NCBI GenBank assembly: GCA_003556325.1
Contig: PWRF01000120.1
Location: forward strand, 1 to 43,779
From: Bacteroidales bacterium
GTDB taxonomy: Bacteria; Bacteroidota; Bacteroidia; Bacteroidales; UBA7960
Direction: 5' to 3'
Length of the DNA stretch: 43,779 bases
Position numbers and translations under genes: made by a program. The stretch's first letter is position 1. The number at the start of each line of letters is the position of its first letter. The notes beneath the pieces were generated by a model that saw only the letters and a list, made by a program, of their open reading frames with translations, ran no database searches and was not told the DNA's origin. This document shows, piece by piece, positions 11,566-41,854 of the stretch.

Positions 11566-12915
11566 ATGGCCACCATATTAATAATTGACGATGATATTTA
11601 TATCTGTAAGCGGCTTGAGAAGTTGCTGAAAACCAAGGGGTATAATGTTCGCATTGCCCATACTGCCAATAATGGCATTAAAGAGGTAAAAAGAGGCGGC
11701 GTTGATTTTGTGTTGTGCGACTATCGCTTGCCGGACACCGACGGGAAGGAAACATACCGGCTGGTCAGGAAGTACGAACCTCATATTCCGGTCGTATTCA
11801 TGACGGCATATGCGGATGTGCGTACGGCAGTCCAGATGATACGTGCCGGAGCACTTGATTATATTACCAAACCTTTCCTGCACGAAGAGATCACCAAGCT
11901 CATTGATAAGGGGCTCCGGAAAGGAATGCACGACCCCGGGAGTTTTGAAGATCGCTTTGTGGAGGGAGAAGACCCCGCCATGCAGAATATCATGAAGCAT
12001 GTGGAGATGGTTGCGCCTACCGACCTGAGCGTGCTGATTGAAGGAGAAACCGGATCGGGAAAAGAGTTTATTGCACGCAGCATTCATTATCGCAGCCATC
12101 GGAAGGACAAGCCATTTGTTGCCCTTGATTGCGGCGCCCTGCCGGGCGAACTTGCCAACAGCGAGCTGTTCGGACACGTCAAAGGTGCATTTACCGGTGC
12201 CATCAAGGATAAGGCAGGATGTTTTGAAGAGGCTGAAGGCGGCACCCTGTTCCTTGACGAGATCGGGAACCTCTCGCACGAGAACCAGGTAAGGCTGCTG
12301 CGAACCATACAGGAAAAATCCATTAGCCGGCTGGGCGACAACAAGATCAAACAGGTTGACGTGCGCATCATTTCCGCCACAAACGATGACCTGATCGGCG
12401 ACGTGAAAGCAGGCCGCTTCCGGGAAGACCTGTATCATCGAATCAACGGGTTTACGATACTGGTCCCGCCCCTTCGGGAACGAAAAAACGATATTTTCGC
12501 TTTTGCAGAGCGCTTCCTTGATGATGCCAACGCAGATTTCGGAAAACGGGTGAAGGGCTTTGACCAGGAGGTGCGGGAGGCGTTCCTGCGCTATCCCTGG
12601 CCGGGAAATATCCGGGAACTGGAAAATGTTGTTCACCGGTGTGTTTTGCTTGAACAAGGCCAGAAAGTCACTGCGGACACGCTGCCTGCTGAAATCACAG
12701 AATACACTGAAATATCGGAGCCCATCGGCGAACTGAACAACAGGCCGGGCCTGCCGCTGTCTTTAAAGCAGGCCGCCATGATGGCAGAGCGGGACACCAT
12801 CATAAGGGCACTTAAAGAGTCGGGATATAATAAATCCAGGGCGGCTCAAATGCTCAAGGTGGACAGAAAAACGCTGTACAACAAAATGCGCGAATACAGC
12901 ATCCAAATGGATTAA
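11566..12915 (+). CDS. NtrC-family sigma-54-dependent response regulator
   Basis: REC domain (DDD, D at DYRLPD, K at TKPF), GETGSGKE, ELFGHVKGAFTGA, WPGNIRELENVV, Fis-type HTH at C-terminus. Confidence 0.95.
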   Translation: MATILIIDDDIYICKRLEKLLKTKGYNVRIAHTANNGIKEVKRGGVDFVLCDYRLPDTDGKETYRLVRKYEPHIPVVFMTAYADVRTAVQMIRAGALDYITKPFLHEEITKLIDKGLRKGMHDPGSFEDRFVEGEDPAMQNIMKHVEMVAPTDLSVLIEGETGSGKEFIARSIHYRSHRKDKPFVALDCGALPGELANSELFGHVKGAFTGAIKDKAGCFEEAEGGTLFLDEIGNLSHENQVRLLRTIQEKSISRLGDNKIKQVDVRIISATNDDLIGDVKAGRFREDLYHRINGFTILVPPLRERKNDIFAFAERFLDDANADFGKRVKGFDQEVREAFLRYPWPGNIRELENVVHRCVLLEQGQKVTADTLPAEITEYTEISEPIGELNNRPGLPLSLKQAAMMAERDTIIRALKESGYNKSRAAQMLKVDRKTLYNKMREYSIQMD

Positions 12916-14048
12916 TACCTGAGGGTGGCAGCCATCAACGCTTCTTTTTCGGGGAACTCTTCCTTGTCGAGAAGATATACCCTGCCTCCCTGCAAAAACG
13001 TATTTTTCGCGGCCATATCCAGCAGGCAGTAGTTTGTGGCATTCTTCTCCTTATGTATCTCCACACGGCCATTCTCTTTATCATAAACACCAAACAGCTG
13101 TTTGCCCTTCTCTACAAAAAGAGTTTCAACACGCCCTTCCTCGGAGGCATTGTATATGTCGTCTATAATGGTAGCGGCGCGTCCCTTGCTCGAAAGGAAA
13201 TCGTATAGCTTCAACGCTTCGTCCCGGTGCTTCATAAAGTATTTTTCCAGGAGCGGCCAGGCCTTTTTGTGGAGTTCCTGCATGGACAGTTCATCTGGAT
13301 TTCCTGAAATATTTTTTTTGAACAGCGGGCTGTAGGAAGACACTTTACGGTAAAGCGAAAAGATGCTGTCAACGCATGCCAGCACAAGCGGTGCATTATG
13401 TCCCTGCAACACCTCCATCAGGCTTTTGTCGACCTCGCGCAGGTGTTTTATGATCTCATCCTTTTTGAAGTCCTTGCCTCGCCCCTGCCCGTGATACATC
13501 CCCTGTGCCCCTCCGGTCTGACCCGACCTGAATTGCAACGACCTCTCCTCGTAATCGCTTCCCACCGTATCCTCCAGTGTCTGCGGGATGAGGTCGTCAA
13601 CCGGGATCTCCGTTACATGGTCGCGTGTGCCTTCCAAAAGACGAACCTGGTTAAGGCTTAATGGAAGGATGAAAAACCGTCCGTCACCGTTAAAAACCGG
13701 CATCAATGGCAGCAGGTAAAAACGGGTGTTCACTTCGGCATAATCTTTAAAACGAATGGGAAATGTCGAATAGGCGAACTTGCCGGGGTTGAGAAATACG
13801 GCGAGTCCGTCAGACATATGCCTCCATATCTCTGTGTCCTCATACAGCATTTCGAGCGGGTGCGTCATCTCCAGCACGTGATTTCCCTGCATGCCCCTCT
13901 GATGCAGCTCGTCACGCACATTCTGTATCTGGTTTTTAAAGCGGATGCGCGTCTTTTTGTTATCTCCCGCGCGCTCTGTGGGGATATAGATAGAAACACA
14001 AGGATATTGCTGTACTTCAGCCAGCTCCTGGAAAATCTTCCTTGTCAT
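12912..14048 (-). CDS. Bacterial archaeo-eukaryotic release factor-like protein (baeRF, eRF1/Pelota-like)
   Basis: YPCVSIYIPTERAGDNKKTRIRFKNQIQNVRDEL, W..MSDGLAVFLNPGKFAYSTFPI, FFILPLSLNQVRLLEGTRDHVTEI, ATIIDDIYNASEEGRVETLFVEKG. Confidence 0.75.
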   Translation of the reverse strand: MTRKIFQELAEVQQYPCVSIYIPTERAGDNKKTRIRFKNQIQNVRDELHQRGMQGNHVLEMTHPLEMLYEDTEIWRHMSDGLAVFLNPGKFAYSTFPIRFKDYAEVNTRFYLLPLMPVFNGDGRFFILPLSLNQVRLLEGTRDHVTEIPVDDLIPQTLEDTVGSDYEERSLQFRSGQTGGAQGMYHGQGRGKDFKKDEIIKHLREVDKSLMEVLQGHNAPLVLACVDSIFSLYRKVSSYSPLFKKNISGNPDELSMQELHKKAWPLLEKYFMKHRDEALKLYDFLSSKGRAATIIDDIYNASEEGRVETLFVEKGKQLFGVYDKENGRVEIHKEKNATNYCLLDMAAKNTFLQGGRVYLLDKEEFPEKEALMAATLRY

Positions 14049-14142
14049 TATAGCCATTTCTAGAAGTTTTTTATTCCAGTACATTCAAACGGCCAGCTTG
14101 CATGACAGTCTGGTATCCGGAAAACATGAAACAATAGTTATG

Positions 14143-17827: not shown

Positions 17828-19264
17828 ATGAGAACAATCTTAAGCAAGCTTATCTTTTTAATAACCGGCATGGTGTTGTTTCCCCTGCTTCTTGTTGCTG
17901 AGCATCCCGGGGTCTGGACGCTGGAAGATTGCGTAAATCATGCCAGGGAGAATAACCTGCGCATACAGCAGCAACGGCTGGGAGTGGATGTGGCCAGGGA
18001 AAATTTGCGCCAAAGCCAGGCCAACCGTTTCCCGTCGCTGAACGCCGGGGCCAGCCACAACTACAACTGGGGGCGTACACTCGACCCCGTTACCAATGAG
18101 TTTGTCACCGAAAGGGTGCAGACCAACAATTTCAATGTGTCCAGCGGGGTGACATTGTTTAGCGGGTTCCAGGTGCGTAACAGCATAGAAAGAGACCGCT
18201 ACAACCTGGAGTCGGTCCGTTTGGACGTGCAGACCATGGAGGACGACATCTCCTTGGCCGTGGCCAGCGGCTACCTCCAGATACTGTTCAGCAAGGAGCT
18301 TGTTGAGGTGGCGGCCAACCAGCTTGATATCACGCGCCAGCAACTGGAGCGTACCGAAAAGCTGGTGAATGCCGGAACCCTTGCGCGCGGCAGCTTGCTG
18401 AACATCGAAGCCCAGAAGGCATCAGAAGAAGTGCTGCTGGTAAACGCAGAGAACCAGCTGCGGCTGGCCTATCTGGACCTTATGCAGTTGCTGGATCTTC
18501 GGGAAGATATTGAATTTGCCATTGAGGTCCCTGAGATTGAAATACAACCCACCGAAACAGTGGATTATTCTCCGCTGCAGCTCTACGACACTGCCGTCAG
18601 GATACAGCCGGACATAAGGTCGGCCGAAATGCAGGTTCGCACTGCCGAAAAAGGGTATGAAATTGCCCGGGGCGGTCGTTACCCCCAGCTGACACTGCGC
18701 GGAAGCCTGGGCACCGGGTATTCTGAAGCAAGGCTCGAAATTGCCGAAATGATAGAAACAGACCCCGAACAGATCGGCCAGACAGCCTCAGGCGAAGCTG
18801 TTTTTGCCCCTTCTTTCGACATAGAAACCAGGATCATTCCCTTCTGGGATCAAATTGACGATAACCTGAACAGGAGCATCGGCCTTAACTTGCAAATCCC
18901 GATCTTTAACAACTACCAGGTGAGAACACAGATCAGCCAGTCGAAAATATCTCTTGAAAATGCACGCCTTCAGCGTCAGATCGTCCGGGACGAACTCTAC
19001 AAGACCATCGAGCAGGCTCATCAGGACGCCCATGCCGCCATGCAGCGCTATGTTGCCACTGAGAAGAATGTGGAAGCCCTCGAAGAGTCTTTCCGCTATA
19101 CAGAAGAACGGTTTAATGTAGGCATGGTGAACACCCTGGAGTATAACGATGCGAAAAACAGGCTTGCCGAAGCGCAATCCGAGCTGCTCCAGGCAAAATA
19201 CGAGTACGTTTTCCGGGTGCAGATCCTGGACTTCTATATAGGAAATCCTCTGACTTTACGTTAG
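17828..19264 (+). CDS. TolC-family outer membrane efflux protein
   Basis: Signal peptide; WTLEDCVNHARENNLRIQQQRL; repeated TolC-type helical segments; ERFNVGMVNTLEYNDAKNRLAEAQSELLQAKYEYVF. Confidence 0.92.
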   Translation: MRTILSKLIFLITGMVLFPLLLVAEHPGVWTLEDCVNHARENNLRIQQQRLGVDVARENLRQSQANRFPSLNAGASHNYNWGRTLDPVTNEFVTERVQTNNFNVSSGVTLFSGFQVRNSIERDRYNLESVRLDVQTMEDDISLAVASGYLQILFSKELVEVAANQLDITRQQLERTEKLVNAGTLARGSLLNIEAQKASEEVLLVNAENQLRLAYLDLMQLLDLREDIEFAIEVPEIEIQPTETVDYSPLQLYDTAVRIQPDIRSAEMQVRTAEKGYEIARGGRYPQLTLRGSLGTGYSEARLEIAEMIETDPEQIGQTASGEAVFAPSFDIETRIIPFWDQIDDNLNRSIGLNLQIPIFNNYQVRTQISQSKISLENARLQRQIVRDELYKTIEQAHQDAHAAMQRYVATEKNVEALEESFRYTEERFNVGMVNTLEYNDAKNRLAEAQSELLQAKYEYVFRVQILDFYIGNPLTLR

Positions 19265-19287
19265 ATGTTTAGAAACATTATTTCATC

Positions 19288-20604
19288 ATGAAAAGAAGAA
19301 AAGGACTTAAAATAGCATTGATCGTTGTCGGCGTCATCGTCGTTTTCAGCCTGATAGGCCGGTGCGGCGGCTCCGGCGACGGCCGCCGCGTATCTGTTGA
19401 GCCGGCAGAAACCCGCGATATTGTAGAGATCGTCACCACCAACGGTAGAGTCCGGCCCGTTACCGAGGTTAAAATGGCCCCGGATGTGTCGGGTGAGATC
19501 GTTCAGTTATACGTATACGAGGGCGAATATGTGGAACGCGGCCAGTTGCTGGCGCGTATCAACCCCGACATTTATGAGTCGGCACTCGACAGGGCCGAGG
19601 CCAGCCTGAACCAGGCAAGGGCCAACCTGGCCAATGCCCGCGCCCGCGTGTTGCAGAGCGAAGCCCAGTATGTGAACGCCCGCTCGAACTACCTGCGTAA
19701 CAAACGGCTTTTCGAAGAGAATGCCATCTCTGAATCTGAATATGAGACCGCCTATTCGCAATACCGTGTTGCTGAAGCAGAGGTGGAGGGCAGCAAACAG
19801 AACGTTGTCGGTGCCGAATACCAGGTTAAAAGCGCCGAGGCCGGCGTAAGGGAGTCGCGCGACAATCTCAGCAAGACCAACCTTTTTGCCCCTATGGACG
19901 GCACCGTGTCGAGGCTCGATGCCGAGGTAGGCGAGCGTGTGGTGGGCACACAACAATATGCCGGAACCGAGATCATTCGTATTGCCAATCTCAATGAGAT
20001 GGAGGTAAAGGTTGATGTTAACGAAAACGATATCGTGCGTGTAAACGAGGGCGACACCGCCTTTATCCAGGTCGACGCCTTTTTTGGGGAAGAGTTCCGT
20101 GGCATAGTGACCTCCATTGCCAACTCCGCCGACACCGATATGATGGGCAGCGACCAGGTGACAAACTTTGAGGTGCGCATCCTGGTGCTTCCCGAATCCT
20201 ATGCGCATTTGCTGCGTGAGGACCGTCCGCACCTGTCGCCTTTCCGCCCCGGCATGTCTGCCACCGTTGACATACAGACCGAGAGGGCCTCAAATGTGGT
20301 GTCGTTGCCTATCCAGGCTGTCACCACCCGGGATGCGGATGCCATTGCTGCCCTCTCTGAGGAAGACCGTTCCTCCGGCGGCAGCAGCATGGCCCGCCAG
20401 CGCGAGGTCATCTTCCTGTACGACGGAGGCAGGGTGAAGATTGCTCCGGTACGCACCGGGATACAGGACAATCAGTATATTGAGATCAGGGAGGGTCTGG
20501 AAGCAGGACAAGAGGTGGTAAGCGGCCCCTACAGGCTTATATCCCGCGAACTCAGGGACGGCATGGAGGTCGAAAAAGTGGGGCGCGACCAGCTGTTCCG
20601 GTAG
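19288..20604 (+). CDS. HlyD/MacA-type periplasmic adaptor (membrane fusion protein)
   Basis: N-terminal TM; VSGEIVQLYVYEGEYVERGQLLARI; coiled-coil; NLFAPMDGTVSRLDAEVGERV. Confidence 0.92.
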   Translation: MKRRKGLKIALIVVGVIVVFSLIGRCGGSGDGRRVSVEPAETRDIVEIVTTNGRVRPVTEVKMAPDVSGEIVQLYVYEGEYVERGQLLARINPDIYESALDRAEASLNQARANLANARARVLQSEAQYVNARSNYLRNKRLFEENAISESEYETAYSQYRVAEAEVEGSKQNVVGAEYQVKSAEAGVRESRDNLSKTNLFAPMDGTVSRLDAEVGERVVGTQQYAGTEIIRIANLNEMEVKVDVNENDIVRVNEGDTAFIQVDAFFGEEFRGIVTSIANSADTDMMGSDQVTNFEVRILVLPESYAHLLREDRPHLSPFRPGMSATVDIQTERASNVVSLPIQAVTTRDADAIAALSEEDRSSGGSSMARQREVIFLYDGGRVKIAPVRTGIQDNQYIEIREGLEAGQEVVSGPYRLISRELRDGMEVEKVGRDQLFR

Positions 20605-34943: not shown

Positions 34944-35237
34944 TCAGACCATCTCTTCGACGGGCCATTGAAAGGCCCTGATTCCCTGTTGGCTGGCTTT
35001 TTCTTCAATCGCCTTCACCCCGGCGAGCAGCTTTTTCGCTTTTTCTTCGTCTACCACCGAGAGGACGGCAGAGTTCATAGCCGGCCAGGTGTGTGTGCCC
35101 ATGTGGGGTTCACCGGTTTTCGTGCCCCGGCCCATCACATCTTCCCACTGCGTAAAACCCCGGGCTCCGGTTTTGTCAAGCAACTCCGCCACACGCTCTG
35201 TGAGTGCCTGGTTGTATACAATGAATATGGCTTTCAT
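34944..35237 (-). CDS. PII-like protein, last gene of the RND efflux operon
   Basis: 97 aa: MKAIFIVYNQALTERVAELLDKTGARGFTQWEDVMGRGTKTGEPHMGTHTWPAMNSAVLSVVDEEKAKKLLAGVKAIEEKASQQGIRAFQWPVEEMV; ferredoxin-like PII architecture. Confidence 0.7.
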   Translation of the reverse strand: MKAIFIVYNQALTERVAELLDKTGARGFTQWEDVMGRGTKTGEPHMGTHTWPAMNSAVLSVVDEEKAKKLLAGVKAIEEKASQQGIRAFQWPVEEMV

Positions 35238-35331
35238 TTGTTTGTTTATTTGGTAACTAGTTGTTATTGAGGCGCTTGTGTTCTCAGTAGAACAGCCAAC
35301 AGCCTTCTTAATCCCAACACCGTCGCGGTCA

Positions 35332-38300
35332 TCAGCTTCCATTCACCTGCCGGTGGACACGCTTCCGGTCCTTGTGCACCTTCCTGGCGCCAAACATCGT
35401 GTACACCACGGGGACAAACACAAGGGTAACCAGTGTGGAGAATGTCAGTCCGCCGATTACCGCTATCGCCATGGGCGCCCATATCTCAGATCCTTCTCCG
35501 GTAGCCATCACCATGGGGATCATGGCCAGCAGGGTAGTGAGGCTGGTCATGAGCACCGGCCGCAGACGCGACTTGCCGGCGGTGATCACCGACTGCACTA
35601 CGCTCATGCCTCTTGCGTACATCAGGTTGGTAAAGTCTATCAGTACGATGGAGTTCTTCACTACGATCCCCACCAGGATGATGCCCCCGATCATCGAAAT
35701 TACGCTGAGTTCCGTGCCTGTGATGAACAGTGCCAGTATCACTCCGGTGAAGGCAAAGGGCACCGCCAGCATGATGATGAAAGGCATCCGGAAGGATTCA
35801 AACTGGGCTGCCATTACCACATAGACCAGGAAGATGCTGAGGATAAGCAGCAGCCCCAGGTCGGCAAATGCCTCCTGCTGATCCTGGATCTGTCCTCCAA
35901 ACTCTACGAAGACGCCTTCCGGAAGATCCATTTCGTCCAGCTCCGCCCGTATGTCGGCAGTCACGTCGCCAAGCGATCGTTCGTGAAGCGAGCTGGATAC
36001 GGTAAGGTAGCGCACCCGGTTTTTCCTTTCGATGTTGGGCGGAGCGTGAAACTCCTGTACCTCGGCGAACTCTTTTATCCGCACCATTCTGCCCATGGGG
36101 TTTTGCACCGAGATGTTCTCGATGTGTTCAATGCTGTTGCGGAAGTCCTCCTGGTGCCTTACCACGACGTCGTACTCATATCCGTCTTCCCGGTACAGCG
36201 TGGCTGTCATACCTTCCACACGGTTGCGGATGGCTTGTGCCACGGTATTTGCGTTGAGGCCGAAGGCCGACATTTTCTCCTGGTCGGGGATGATTTGCAG
36301 CTCCGGACGTTCGGCGCCACGGCTTATGTTGATGTCGCGCACCCCGCGGATGTTTTCCATGCGCCGGGAAAGCTCCTCTGCCACAGAGTTGGTGGCGTCA
36401 AAGTCATCGCCAAAGATTTCCACTTCCACAGGGGCTCCCATGCCCATGCCGCCGCCACCTTCGGTGCTGACCGAATAGTTGACGATCTCGGGAAACTTGT
36501 CGAGCTCGCGCCGCAGCGATTCGGCAATCTGCCATACGCTGCGTTCACGCTCTGCCTGCGGCACCAGGCGCATGGTGAGGTCGATGGTGTGGCTGCCCTG
36601 GTCGCCGGCGAAAATCCCCATGCCGGCACCGGCACTCACACTATACAGGTCGATCTCCGGATACTGTTCGATGATGTCTTCAAGGGCCCGTGCCGTCCGC
36701 GTGGTCTCCTCGAGGCGCAGGCCTATGGGGAGTTCGATATCGGCATCGATCCGGTTCTGATCCGACTCCGGCATGAAGGCGGTGCCGATAAAGGGCATGA
36801 GTGCAAAGCTTCCGAAGAAGATGAGTACAGAGAGAATTACTATGAACACCCTCCTGCGAACAGCATAGGTGAGAATGCGTTCGTAGGTGTTATCTATGGC
36901 CTCCAGTGCGCCCACGATAGCGTTGGTGACCCGGGGGCCGAAGCCGCTGCTCCTGCCTCCGCCGGGCTTCATGAGTTTTGAGACAAGCATGGGGGTCAGC
37001 GAAAGGGCGGCAATCGTAGAGACAGACACCGTGATAGCCACAATGAATCCAAGCTGGCTGAAGAAAAGCCCCATCAGGCCGGAAATCATGGTGAGCGGCA
37101 GGAATACAGCCAAAACCGTTAACGTCGATGCCACCACGGCAAGGCCTACCTCGTTGGTGCCGTATACGGCGGCCTCCCTCGGAGAGGAGCCGCGCTCAAT
37201 GTGCCTGGTTGCATTTTCCAGCACCACAATGGCGTCGTCAACAACCATCCCCATGGCAATGGTCAGACTCGAAAGAGATATCAGGTTCAATGTGTTGCCG
37301 GTGAAAAACAGGAAGACAAAGGCCGCCACCAGCGATACGGGAATGGTAAGGATAATGATAAAGGTGGCACGCCATCGCCCGATAAAAAAGAGCACCACAA
37401 TGGTGACAAAGATGGCCGCAAAATAAAGGATGTTCACCAGGTTGTCGATGGAGTCGGTAATAAACTCCGACAGGTCTACAATGGTAAGAAGCTGCACATC
37501 AGGAGGCAGGTTTTGCTGTATCTCCGGGATCCTTGCGTTGATCTCCCTGGCGATCTCAACAGTGTTGGCACCCGACTGGCGCTGCACGATCAGGCGGAGG
37601 CCTTGCTCCTTGTTCAGCCTTTCCACGACAGTCAGCTCCCTCAGGGTGTCTTTCACTTCGGCAACGTCTTCCAGGTATACCGGCCGGCCTTCAAAAGTGC
37701 CCACTACCATGCCACGCATATGGCGGCTTTCCTCAAACTCTCCTACAAACCGAAGGGGGTAGTCTATTTGTCCCATCTTGATATTTCCGGAGGGCAGGTT
37801 GACGTTCTCGGTAGCGAGGGCAGTACCAATTTGCTCTACCGTCATGTTGAAGGCGTCGAGCTTTTGCGGGTCTACGTTAACCTGGATTTCCCTTATGGGT
37901 TCTCCGGTGACGACCACCGTACCTACTCCTTCGATGCGGCTCAGGGGGTTAACCACCTCGTCGTCGATGATCCTGGCCAGGGCGGGATAACTTTCTTCTG
38001 CTGTTGCCGCCATAACCAACACCGGGATCATCGCGGTGCTGAACTTAAAAATGGTTGGTTGCTCTATGTCTTCCGGAAGGATACGGGTGATACGGTCGAT
38101 CACGTCGCGGATCTCGTTGGTGGCCTCGTCAAGGTTGGTTCCGTATTCGAACTCCAGGAGGATTGTAGAGACGTCGTCGCGCGACACCGAAGAGATCTCC
38201 TTCAGGTCGGTGATCATGCTGAGGTTGTCTTCAAGGGGGCGGGTTACATTGGTTTCAATGTCCGATGCACTGGCTCCCGAATATACTGTAAACACACTGA

Positions 38301-38433
38301 TGATGGGCGGTTCAATTTCGGGGTACAGGTCGATGGGCAGGTTTCGCAGGCTGTACCCGCCGATAACCAATAGCGCCACAAACACCATCAGGGTGGTTAT
38401 AGGTCTTTTTACTGCAGAGCGATATAGTTTCAT
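35332..38433 (-). CDS. RND efflux transporter (AcrB/HAE-like inner membrane pump)
   Basis: 1033 aa; PITTLMVFVALLVIGGYSLRNLPIDLYPEIEPP, GMVVDDAIVVLEN, duplicated RND topology. Confidence 0.96.
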   Translation of the reverse strand: MKLYRSAVKRPITTLMVFVALLVIGGYSLRNLPIDLYPEIEPPIISVFTVYSGASASDIETNVTRPLEDNLSMITDLKEISSVSRDDVSTILLEFEYGTNLDEATNEIRDVIDRITRILPEDIEQPTIFKFSTAMIPVLVMAATAEESYPALARIIDDEVVNPLSRIEGVGTVVVTGEPIREIQVNVDPQKLDAFNMTVEQIGTALATENVNLPSGNIKMGQIDYPLRFVGEFEESRHMRGMVVGTFEGRPVYLEDVAEVKDTLRELTVVERLNKEQGLRLIVQRQSGANTVEIAREINARIPEIQQNLPPDVQLLTIVDLSEFITDSIDNLVNILYFAAIFVTIVVLFFIGRWRATFIIILTIPVSLVAAFVFLFFTGNTLNLISLSSLTIAMGMVVDDAIVVLENATRHIERGSSPREAAVYGTNEVGLAVVASTLTVLAVFLPLTMISGLMGLFFSQLGFIVAITVSVSTIAALSLTPMLVSKLMKPGGGRSSGFGPRVTNAIVGALEAIDNTYERILTYAVRRRVFIVILSVLIFFGSFALMPFIGTAFMPESDQNRIDADIELPIGLRLEETTRTARALEDIIEQYPEIDLYSVSAGAGMGIFAGDQGSHTIDLTMRLVPQAERERSVWQIAESLRRELDKFPEIVNYSVSTEGGGGMGMGAPVEVEIFGDDFDATNSVAEELSRRMENIRGVRDINISRGAERPELQIIPDQEKMSAFGLNANTVAQAIRNRVEGMTATLYREDGYEYDVVVRHQEDFRNSIEHIENISVQNPMGRMVRIKEFAEVQEFHAPPNIERKNRVRYLTVSSSLHERSLGDVTADIRAELDEMDLPEGVFVEFGGQIQDQQEAFADLGLLLILSIFLVYVVMAAQFESFRMPFIIMLAVPFAFTGVILALFITGTELSVISMIGGIILVGIVVKNSIVLIDFTNLMYARGMSVVQSVITAGKSRLRPVLMTSLTTLLAMIPMVMATGEGSEIWAPMAIAVIGGLTFSTLVTLVFVPVVYTMFGARKVHKDRKRVHRQVNGS

Positions 38434-38474
38434 GCGTTTATTCTTTTAGGAAATCGGCTCATTCCCTTAATTTG

Positions 38475-39515
38475 TTAATTAACCACTTCTACTTTTGTCT
38501 GATCCCTCAGGTTGTGCTGTCCTACTACTACCAGTTGTTCTCCGGCTTCAATCCCCGACAGGATCTCCAGCTTGTCGTCGAAGGTGCGTCCGAGGGTAAC
38601 GGGCCTTCTGTGGGCTACTCCGTCTTCCACGACAAACACAAAGCGCTCGTCTGAGCCAACCTGCTTGCGGACGGCCAGGGCGGGGACGAGCAGGCCCTCC
38701 AGTTCGCCCACATGCAGTGTTACGCGTGTGAACATGCCGGGACGCAGGGCGAGATCGCGGTTGTCAACCAGGATCTCCACCTTGAAGGTGCCTGTGGTGC
38801 GGTCAACGGTTGGATAAATCTTGTTGATATAGCCTTCAAACTCCCTGTCAGAGTATATATCTGACCGCAAGACAGCCCGCTGGCCTTTCTCTATCCTCGG
38901 GAAAAAGCGTTCGGACACCCCGATAGTGATCTTTACCGGCTGTATTTGTTTCAGCGAAACGATGGCCACCCTGCCTTCCGGCGTACTGGGCGACATGGTA
39001 AAGATCTCTCCTGCGCTGTTATACCTGCCGGTGATGATGCCGGGGATGTTGGCGCGGATCTGTGTGTTGTCGCGCAGGTTTTCGACGTTGCTGCTGGCAA
39101 CATCATACTGCGTTTTCAGCTGGTCAACCTGCTGCTGGGTTGTGGCACCGATGCGAAGCAGGGTGTCCAGCCTGCGAAGGTCTTCCCTGATGTTGTCCAG
39201 CTGCACCTTTGCCTGGAACAACTGGGTTCTGTCCATTTGTACCAGAAGCTGGTCTTTTTCAACCTGGTCGCCCACGTCAACAAGGATATCTTCAATGCGG
39301 GCAGGACCGGGGGCGCCTATGTAGGCTTCCTCGAAGGCTTCCACCGTCCCGGTGGTACGTATGTCGTCGCTCAGCGTGGTGAGCTCCAGCTCCTGCAGCT
39401 CTACCAGCACCACGTCGCGCTCTTCTGTTTCTTCCTCTTCAATTAGTGCACAGCCGCCGGCAACGAATGCAAGGGCTAGCAACCAGGCTGTTTTTGAAAT
39501 GAAACGTGTCTTCAT
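38475..39515 (-). CDS. RND periplasmic adaptor lipoprotein
   Basis: ATG at 39515; lipobox LALAFVAGGC; HlyD motifs ILVDVGDQVEKDQLLVQMD, DRTTGTFKVEILVDN. Confidence 0.93.
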   Translation of the reverse strand: MKTRFISKTAWLLALAFVAGGCALIEEEETEERDVVLVELQELELTTLSDDIRTTGTVEAFEEAYIGAPGPARIEDILVDVGDQVEKDQLLVQMDRTQLFQAKVQLDNIREDLRRLDTLLRIGATTQQQVDQLKTQYDVASSNVENLRDNTQIRANIPGIITGRYNSAGEIFTMSPSTPEGRVAIVSLKQIQPVKITIGVSERFFPRIEKGQRAVLRSDIYSDREFEGYINKIYPTVDRTTGTFKVEILVDNRDLALRPGMFTRVTLHVGELEGLLVPALAVRKQVGSDERFVFVVEDGVAHRRPVTLGRTFDDKLEILSGIEAGEQLVVVGQHNLRDQTKVEVVN

Positions 39516-39534
39516 GATGTGATTTTTGAATTTT

Positions 39535-40908
39535 TTATAATGGTTTGTTTTCTCCGATAAACTTGTCGTATTCGGCTTTTGCCTGCAGGATGTCGTATTT
39601 TGCCTGCAGCAGGTTGAAGCGGGCCTGGGTGAGCGACACCTCGCTGTCGTTAAGCTCCATGAGGGTTCCCTGGCCTGTTTCATAACGTGTTTTTGCGATC
39701 TCGAAGCCCCGCTCAGCCATCCGAACGTTGTTTCGTGCATTTGTTGTTTGTTCCATGGCCACCATCATATTTTTTAGAATGTTATCCAGCTGAATATTAA
39801 GGTTGTCTTCCAGGAAGTGCTTTTGCAGCCGGATCTGGTCTCTCGCTATTTCCAGCTGACGGGTTTGCTGGCGTACGGCAAAGCCGTTAAACAGCGGGAT
39901 GGTAAGGCGGAGACCGGCAGAAAAGGTTTCCACCCATTGGTAGTCGCCGAAGCGGAAGTGGTTGGCTTCGGTCTGGTACTGGTAGTTTCCCGCCAGGTTG
40001 AGCATGGGAAGCCCGCCCGCCCGTGCCGTTTCCTTTTGCTGGCTTACCAGGTCGAGCTGAAGGCTCATTTGGGCCAGCTCGGTGTTTTGCTGGAGGCTTC
40101 TGTCAGCATCCTGAACGTTAAAGTCAGAGATGCGTGTCACGGTCATATCGGAAAGGTTGCCATGGATGGCCAGGGGCTGTGTCCCCTCAACTCCTATGAG
40201 GGCTTTCAGGTAGTTTAACGCTACCTCGTAAGCGTTTTCGGCCTGCATGACACCGGGGCGCAGGTTTTCGGCCTGAACCTCTGCCCGTATCAGGTCGTAC
40301 TCGGCAACGGTGCCCTGTTCATACATGCGGCGTGTGCGCTGCAGGTTTTCTGTGGCGTTGGCGAAACTTTTGCGCATTACCTGCATAGATTCTTTGGCCA
40401 GCAAAACATCGAAAAAGGCCAGCTGTACGTTGTAGTCCAGCTCAAGCTTGCTGCCCCTGAACTGTTCGCCGGCGAGGGTTTTCTCCGTGCGGGCCACTCT
40501 CAGCGACCGGTTCAGGCCGAGATTTAGCAGGGGCATCTCCGTGGATAGAACGCCCATGAAAGAGTTCTCCGCCCCCACTTCGATAACTCCGCCAGGGCCA
40601 AACGGGCTGTCGTCAGGTAAAAAGATTACCGGGCGTTTGATGTTGCGGTTGTAGCTTCCGCTGATGTTAAAAGAAGGCAAATAGCTGCTCCTTACCTCCT
40701 GGATGCCCAGCTCCGCACTTTCGATGTCGAGCCTGGCAACTTCCAGTGTCGGGTTTTGAGCCCTGGCAATAGCCATGGCCTCATCGAGGTCGACGAACAG
40801 GGTGTCGCCGCCGTTTTGTGAGTGAACGTCCGGCGCCCCCGCGAAAAGCATGAACCATGACGCCAGCATGGTCAGCAAAAGCGATCTGTGTGTGCTCAGT
40901 TTAAACAT
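39535..40908 (-). CDS. TolC-family outer membrane efflux protein
   Basis: Signal peptide; VDLDEAMAIARAQNPTLEVARLDIESAELGIQE; ETGQGTLMELNDSEVSLTQARFNLLQAKYDILQA. Confidence 0.93.
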   Translation of the reverse strand: MFKLSTHRSLLLTMLASWFMLFAGAPDVHSQNGGDTLFVDLDEAMAIARAQNPTLEVARLDIESAELGIQEVRSSYLPSFNISGSYNRNIKRPVIFLPDDSPFGPGGVIEVGAENSFMGVLSTEMPLLNLGLNRSLRVARTEKTLAGEQFRGSKLELDYNVQLAFFDVLLAKESMQVMRKSFANATENLQRTRRMYEQGTVAEYDLIRAEVQAENLRPGVMQAENAYEVALNYLKALIGVEGTQPLAIHGNLSDMTVTRISDFNVQDADRSLQQNTELAQMSLQLDLVSQQKETARAGGLPMLNLAGNYQYQTEANHFRFGDYQWVETFSAGLRLTIPLFNGFAVRQQTRQLEIARDQIRLQKHFLEDNLNIQLDNILKNMMVAMEQTTNARNNVRMAERGFEIAKTRYETGQGTLMELNDSEVSLTQARFNLLQAKYDILQAKAEYDKFIGENKPL

Positions 40909-41524
40909 AGTCTTCTTGCTTATCATTGTAAAACAGGTTTTCTACTTCTTTGAATCCCTTTTCGGTGGAAAGCCCGCGAAGGAAGCCCGTAAGGATCTGT
41001 CTGAAAAGGTCGGATCGTGATATCCGGTCAGTGGGAAATGTCTCAGTGTCGGAAAGCAGGTCGACATGAGAAAACAAAAGCTTGCTGGCAATGCCGGGGT
41101 CTATGTCTTTGCGGAAATAGCCCTGCCTGATGCCCTCAGATATAAGCTGCATGGTATATTTCTCCCGGTCTTCAAGGAGGTCTGCCACCAGGTTGTTCCA
41201 AATATCCGGGTGGAACTTTTGCAACTCACTGACAAACCCCGGATGGTAGTCGTTGATACGAATCACATGGTAGCGGAAGTGCCGGTGCATGATGTCTACC
41301 GGGTTGGCCGCCTCGTCTTCAAGCTGCTCGATCTTTTTTCTGTGTGTGTGGTAGTGGCCCAGCAGGCATTGTTTGAGAAGCTCTTCCTTGTTGCTGAAGT
41401 GTTCGTACAACGTACGCTTACTTATGCCGAGGGCTTCAGCCACATCGTTCATGGTGACCGCCCTGATGCCCTTCCTGAAAAACAGCTCCGTGGCTTCCTG
41501 TATTATGCGTTCTTTTAATTCCAT
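40901..41524 (-). CDS. TetR-family transcriptional regulator
   Basis: ERIIQEATELFFRKGIRAVTMNDVAEALGISKRTLYEHFSNKEELLKQC. Confidence 0.94.
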   Translation of the reverse strand: MELKERIIQEATELFFRKGIRAVTMNDVAEALGISKRTLYEHFSNKEELLKQCLLGHYHTHRKKIEQLEDEAANPVDIMHRHFRYHVIRINDYHPGFVSELQKFHPDIWNNLVADLLEDREKYTMQLISEGIRQGYFRKDIDPGIASKLLFSHVDLLSDTETFPTDRISRSDLFRQILTGFLRGLSTEKGFKEVENLFYNDKQEDYV

Positions 41525-41555: not shown

Positions 41556-41593
41556 TCCCGGAAAACCCGGAGGGTGTTCCGGGTTTTCCGGGA
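41556..41593. other. Long perfect hairpin upstream of tetR
   Basis: tcccggaaaacccgga (41556-41571) and tccgggttttccggga (41578-41593), 16-bp inverted repeat with 6-nt loop. Confidence 0.85.
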
Positions 41594-41854
41594 CAATGGC
41601 CATGTTTGCATCAAAAAACATGCCAAGCATGCCGAAAAAACTTTAAAAACACACAACGGCCTGTGTTTTATAGTGTTTGGCGAAGGTAAGGAAACCAATA
41701 AAACGCTCCGGGTTTTTTGGGTTATTTAACAGTTCGGCTGAAAAATGTGCGGAATCGTACAGGGGTTGTGCGGATAGCGGACAGGGGGGCATTCGTAGTA
41801 AACCACTTCGTGGTCTTGCGGAGGCCGTGATCAGGGCACAACTGAACTCCGGCA

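Follow-up and report, generated by a model that had tools for sequence, protein, structure and literature searches.

PII proteins are known to regulate trimeric transporters: GlnK acts on AmtB, and SbtB acts on SbtA, inhibiting this trimeric transporter (PMC10710835). According to a 2023 review, the use of PII proteins on transporters seems confined to trimers; the PII-controlled transporters that it gives are AmtB/Amt1, Nrt, Urt and SbtA, with no RND pump among them, and for direct control of RND efflux it cites small proteins, among them AcrZ and WatS1 (PMC10710835). P-II-domain proteins encoded with RND tripartite pumps have been described in proteobacteria, where PII-NG proteins, including Geobacter GSU2134, lie beside metal-type CzcABC pumps (PMC7726332). 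Within the Bacteroidales, the RND multidrug pump XepCAB of Porphyromonas gingivalis exports rifampin, puromycin and ethidium bromide (PMC4790292). In the literature searched, which lacks most subscription papers, we found no function for the NCBIfam 'PG0541 family transporter-associated protein' (NF045581) and no report of PII control of RND pumps; the name 'PG0541' was met only within gene lists, and the term 'PII-NG' in a single paper.

Here we analysed a locus in a window of 43,779 nucleotides, which is one entire contig of a Bacteroidales MAG that is 86% complete. An ORF check identified five genes on the minus strand (41524-34944; Table 1), in the order tetR, tolC, adaptor, RND pump and PII-like gene that the sequence-only reading had given, and the domains TetR_N, OEP, HlyD_D23/RND_mfp, ACR_tran and P-II all exceeded curated cut-offs in profile scans. 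The 8-bp overlap between tetR and tolC in that reading holds for a tolC start at the second ATG (40908), while the first ATG gives an overlap of 26 bp. Called mechanically, the adaptor ORF spans 39740-38475, and relatives begin to align at residue 76 of this long ORF. The adaptor probably starts at 39515 with the lipoprotein signal MKTRF..AGGC, in which an AGGC lipobox-like stretch can be read from the sequence. The ATG of the PII-like gene at 35237, located 94 bp from the pump stop codon, agrees with the length of the family, 173 of 187 members having 97 aa. Because the same order recurs across the Bacteroidales, the five-gene arrangement is not a matter of chance. In RefSeq plasmid records from Parabacteroides distasonis and Bacteroides finegoldii, the five genes stand in identical order and the PG0541 family name is already in use. 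Scanning the operon for promoters returned promoter-like sites at no more than chance level, and no terminator was recognised directly 3' of it. Elsewhere in the window, a second pair of TolC and HlyD-type adaptor genes lies at 17828-20604 with a TsaD-domain gene after it; a scan of neighbouring genes recognised no pump there. A bacterial archaeo-eukaryotic release factor-like protein (baeRF family 7/3) is encoded at 12912-14084.

Table 1. Genes of the operon and inverted repeats upstream of tetR (positions in the window).
Feature	Position	Strand	Evidence or remark
tetR, TetR/AcrR-family regulator, 207 aa	40901..41524	-	Pfam TetR_N 64.1 bits (cut-off 24)
tolC, outer-membrane efflux protein	39535..40926 (start 40926 or 40908)	-	Pfam OEP 187.5 bits (cut-off 22)
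RND periplasmic adaptor, probable lipoprotein	38475..39515	-	NCBIfam RND_mfp 198.7 bits (cut-off 94.9)
RND permease, HAE type, 1033 aa	35332..38433	-	Pfam ACR_tran 879.5 bits (cut-off 28)
PII-like protein, 97 aa, PG0541 family	34944..35237	-	NF045581 120.4 bits (cut-off 45); Pfam P-II 40.6 bits (cut-off 25)
26-bp inverted repeat AAAACC-N14-GGTTTT, candidate TetR operator	41562..41587		upstream of tetR
Second repeat copy, one mismatch	41691..41716		0.23 matches expected in window

As far as prediction can tell, the 97-aa protein has the PII fold proposed by the sequence-only reading, for which the lack of a predicted PII fold had been named as a refutation. The Pfam P-II match extends to 21 of 21 members of a diverse alignment. 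An AlphaFold2 monomer model has the order beta-alpha-beta-beta-alpha-beta with a mean pLDDT of 86.6, its uncertain part being the T-loop (about residues 37-54). Using Foldseek against the PDB, we found that the best matches were SbtB (E 9.9e-08) and CPII (1.9e-07), alongside a Thermus PII-like protein and GlnK proteins; CPII and classical PII were also matched in a profile search of PDB sequences. When compared with DUF3240 and DUF190, which are other PII-like families, 1 of the 21 members matched either, and only at E 0.07-0.08. NF045581 matched the protein over its full length (profile positions 1-91 of 91), and in the features tested we found no difference from a plain member of this family. 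Databases already know both the family and its link to a transporter; the pairing is not a new one, as NCBIfam names the family 'transporter-associated', and the window contributes a new member. SbtB and CPII are also small PII-like proteins of similar length. However, they are found beside bicarbonate transport systems, whereas the protein described here shares about 17-25% identity with them, neighbours an RND efflux pump and has a T-loop of its own (GEPHxGTHTWP).

The pump carries paired aspartates in TM4 (D399 and D400) and a lysine in TM10 (K926), as expected of HAE-type permeases. Together with T963, these residues, which we take to be the equivalents of the AcrB proton relay, are kept in every one of the 187 PII-linked main-clade pumps, in keeping with the HAE-looking pump of the earlier reading. 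The pump scored 459 bits against the CusA/CzcA model (cut-off 701), and it also missed the multidrug subfamily cut-offs, with 525 versus 940 bits for TIGR00915 (HAE-1) and 790.6 versus 1250 bits for the best model, RND_permease_2. Judged by its relay residues, the pump is of HAE type, closest to multidrug permease models. Its characterised relative is most likely XepCAB, likewise an RND pump of a Bacteroidales. The gene that gives the PG0541 family its name is numbered just after PG_0538 and PG_0539, which we take to be xep genes that PG0541 directly follows. This position is consistent with the listing of PG_0538 and PG_0539 as drug targets with a link to efflux (PMC12382797). Separately, many Bacteroidales RND pumps (G000:C38:1383-4451 (L200), L193-L199, L149-L151, L210-L212, L217 and L226) have a DN/N relay, in which the second Asp of the TM4 pair and the TM10 Lys are both replaced by Asn; this paired change suggests altered ion coupling, perhaps to sodium.

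We assessed the linkage between the PII-like gene and the pump in both directions. In loci with >3.5 kb of upstream sequence, collected via the PII-like gene and including a further Bacteroidales sample, the upstream partner was a same-strand RND gene in 194 of 195 distinct loci, at a distance of ≤700 bp in 193 and of 840 bp in one. The gap had a median of about 31 bp, with some 4-bp overlaps. The sole exception is an orphan PII-like gene without an upstream pump in a Marinilabiliaceae MAG (L114, 4358-4651). Since these loci had been found through the PII-like gene, a reverse test by pump sequence was needed: counting pumps with about 44% identity or more as members of this clade, we found the PII-like gene behind 29 of the 29 whose contig extends downstream. 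Of the 297 genomes examined from the phylum, 17 contained an above-cut-off PII-like match and all 17 adjoin an RND gene, while BLAST detected no RND gene in the 1.5-kb flanks of 13 below-cut-off hits. The pump was just upstream in 79 of 80 named loci, and the PII-like protein of a near relative is 98% identical to that of the window. In total, the gene was carried by 211 of 392 sampled Bacteroidales genomes, about half. Linkage of the PII-like gene to this pump clade is thus near-obligate; a missing association with RND genes had been set beforehand as a possible refutation of the sequence-only reading, and this Bacteroidales-wide survey found the association conserved.

In a pump tree, nearly all PII-linked pumps fall in one clade. 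In its sister clade, eight pumps lack a PII-like gene and three are accompanied by a divergent copy; seven more pumps, which form a clade apart, have another divergent PII-like copy. A divergent PII-like group (L011-L017 and L142-L148) has the motif GKGH-x-T-x-PHLG-x-R-x-FPG-x-N, and the pumps ahead of it form an RND clade of their own, at about 32-35% identity to the pump of the window.

Among the 187 paired homologues, G27, G36, G38, G42, H49, W51, P52 and G85 are 100% conserved, P44 is conserved in 99% and R87 in 90% (the rest mostly His or Lys). The short T-loop follows the conserved motif G-E/D-P-H/R-x-G-T/S-H-T/A-W-P-x-x-N, and R87 aligns with the phosphate-binding Lys90 position of PII in the PDB-sequence profile alignment. 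The stretch aligned with the canonical ATP B-loop TGxxGDGK reads Q-Q-G-I-R-A-F, and the chain, which stops near residue 97, does not reach the position of the C-terminal (C-loop) arginines; ligand sensing is uncertain because both elements are absent, but a nucleotide may be the ligand. The uridylylated Tyr51 is also missing, with no Tyr in the T-loop of the window protein and none conserved at any T-loop column. Position 45 is occupied by His in 64% of members and by Arg in 36%, the position of H49 is Arg in the divergent group L011-L017, and no Cys is conserved among family members. With His and Arg exchanged and no Cys conserved, a fixed metal site seems unlikely, and an anionic ligand or contact with another protein would fit.

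We propose, with a probability of about 0.5, that the locus is a tripartite RND efflux operon resembling XepCAB, to which a dedicated PII-like subunit belongs, a cytosolic trimer that would dock on the pump and, on binding a ligand, change its activity. From the operon, the predicted fold, the linkage and the T-loop conservation, we infer the trimer, its contact with the pump, the ligand and the direction of the effect. As with other PII proteins, the PII-like protein would be a cytosolic homotrimer; RND pumps are trimers, and docking would be three-to-three on the cytoplasmic face of the pump via the conserved T-loop. A small ligand, probably anionic or of nucleotide type, may enter the inter-subunit cleft (G36-x-G38-x3-G42, G85 and the basic residue 87), where its binding would alter pump activity. 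The amount of the system would be set by TetR, probably through the inverted repeat before tetR, and its activity by the PII-like protein. The proposal resembles GlnK-AmtB in that a PII protein is genetically linked to a trimeric membrane transporter, but differs in the lack of a conserved uridylylation Tyr and of a canonical ATP loop, in the shorter T-loop, and in the partner, an efflux pump instead of an ammonium channel. More tentatively, drug efflux may follow a metabolic signal, with a multidrug RND pump gated post-translationally by a dedicated PII-type sensor trimer that matches the threefold symmetry of the pump.

Analysis of coevolution between the PII-like protein and the pump (187 pairs, effective number 121) placed 53 of the top 100 couplings in cytosolic pump loops. 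The control proteins gave similar values (adaptor 48, TetR 40), and no signal set the PII-like protein apart from them. Cytosolic pump loops are not clearly more conserved in PII-linked than in unlinked pumps; the former show slightly stronger conservation at the N-terminus and in the TM2-TM3 loop, although the clades differ for other reasons too. That pumps of the sister clade are mostly without a PII-like gene counts against our main explanation.

An unlikely alternative is that the protein is a ligand-free subunit for assembly or stability, clamping the pump from the cytosol as a trimer without any sensing role. The missing canonical ligand residues of PII would fit such a clamp, as would near-absolute linkage, which is expected of a structural part. 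However, the residues of the PII ligand cleft are kept (G36, G38, G42 and G85 in 100% and R87 in 90% of members).

The PII-like protein might instead act on the TetR of the operon, and so control transcription and not the pump. In most loci tetR opens the operon, and there is a precedent for PII action on the TetR family, as adenylylated GlnK acts on AmtR in Corynebacterium, and in the 151 operons with more than 7.3 kb of upstream sequence, TetR, TolC, adaptor and pump all preceded the PII-like gene in 106. Yet in 38 of the 151 a tetR gene was not detectable by profile while the PII-like gene was still behind the pump. The PII-like gene therefore follows the pump, not the regulator, and we regard action on TetR as doubtful. 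As to how TetR itself may act, the tetR upstream regions show no overall alignment, yet aligning them revealed the inverted repeat AAAACC-N14-GGTTTT, which a test then placed upstream of tetR in 10 of 14 genomes, window included, with about 0.015 expected in all. The whole genome has two exact sites, the other lying inside a gene whose product reads as isoleucyl-tRNA synthetase. The repeat may well serve as the TetR operator, but the copy at 41562-41587 could also be a hairpin.

Of the eight RND matches above the cut-off in the genome, some of them fragments, none but this pump is paired with a PII protein. No P-II gene other than the pump-linked one, and no canonical GlnB/GlnK, was detected in this genome, which is 86% complete. 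This would suit a general signalling protein that is merely co-transcribed with the pump and acts elsewhere in the cell, but such a role is improbable for a gene that is almost never found away from the pump, with one orphan in 195 loci. Highly improbable is a relationship to PII-NG or CutA in which the protein senses metal and tunes a metal efflux pump: PII-NG adjoins CzcABC pumps, one being upregulated by cobalt (PMC7726332), H49 is invariant in 187 members and H45 common, but we rejected this reading on the DD/K relay and low CusA/CzcA score of the HAE-type pump and on the Arg variants and absence of conserved Cys described above. The kinship with PII-NG and the metal ligand suggested by the sequence-only reading are likewise not supported; the Bacteroidales host and the pump type set the family apart, and GSU2134 is first in its operon, whereas the PII-like gene is last here.

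If gating of the pump by the PII-like protein is true, a PII-like partner in about half of the sampled Bacteroidales would tie drug efflux to metabolism in a large order of gut and sediment bacteria. The linkage is strong enough for this question to be tested directly through one small gene.
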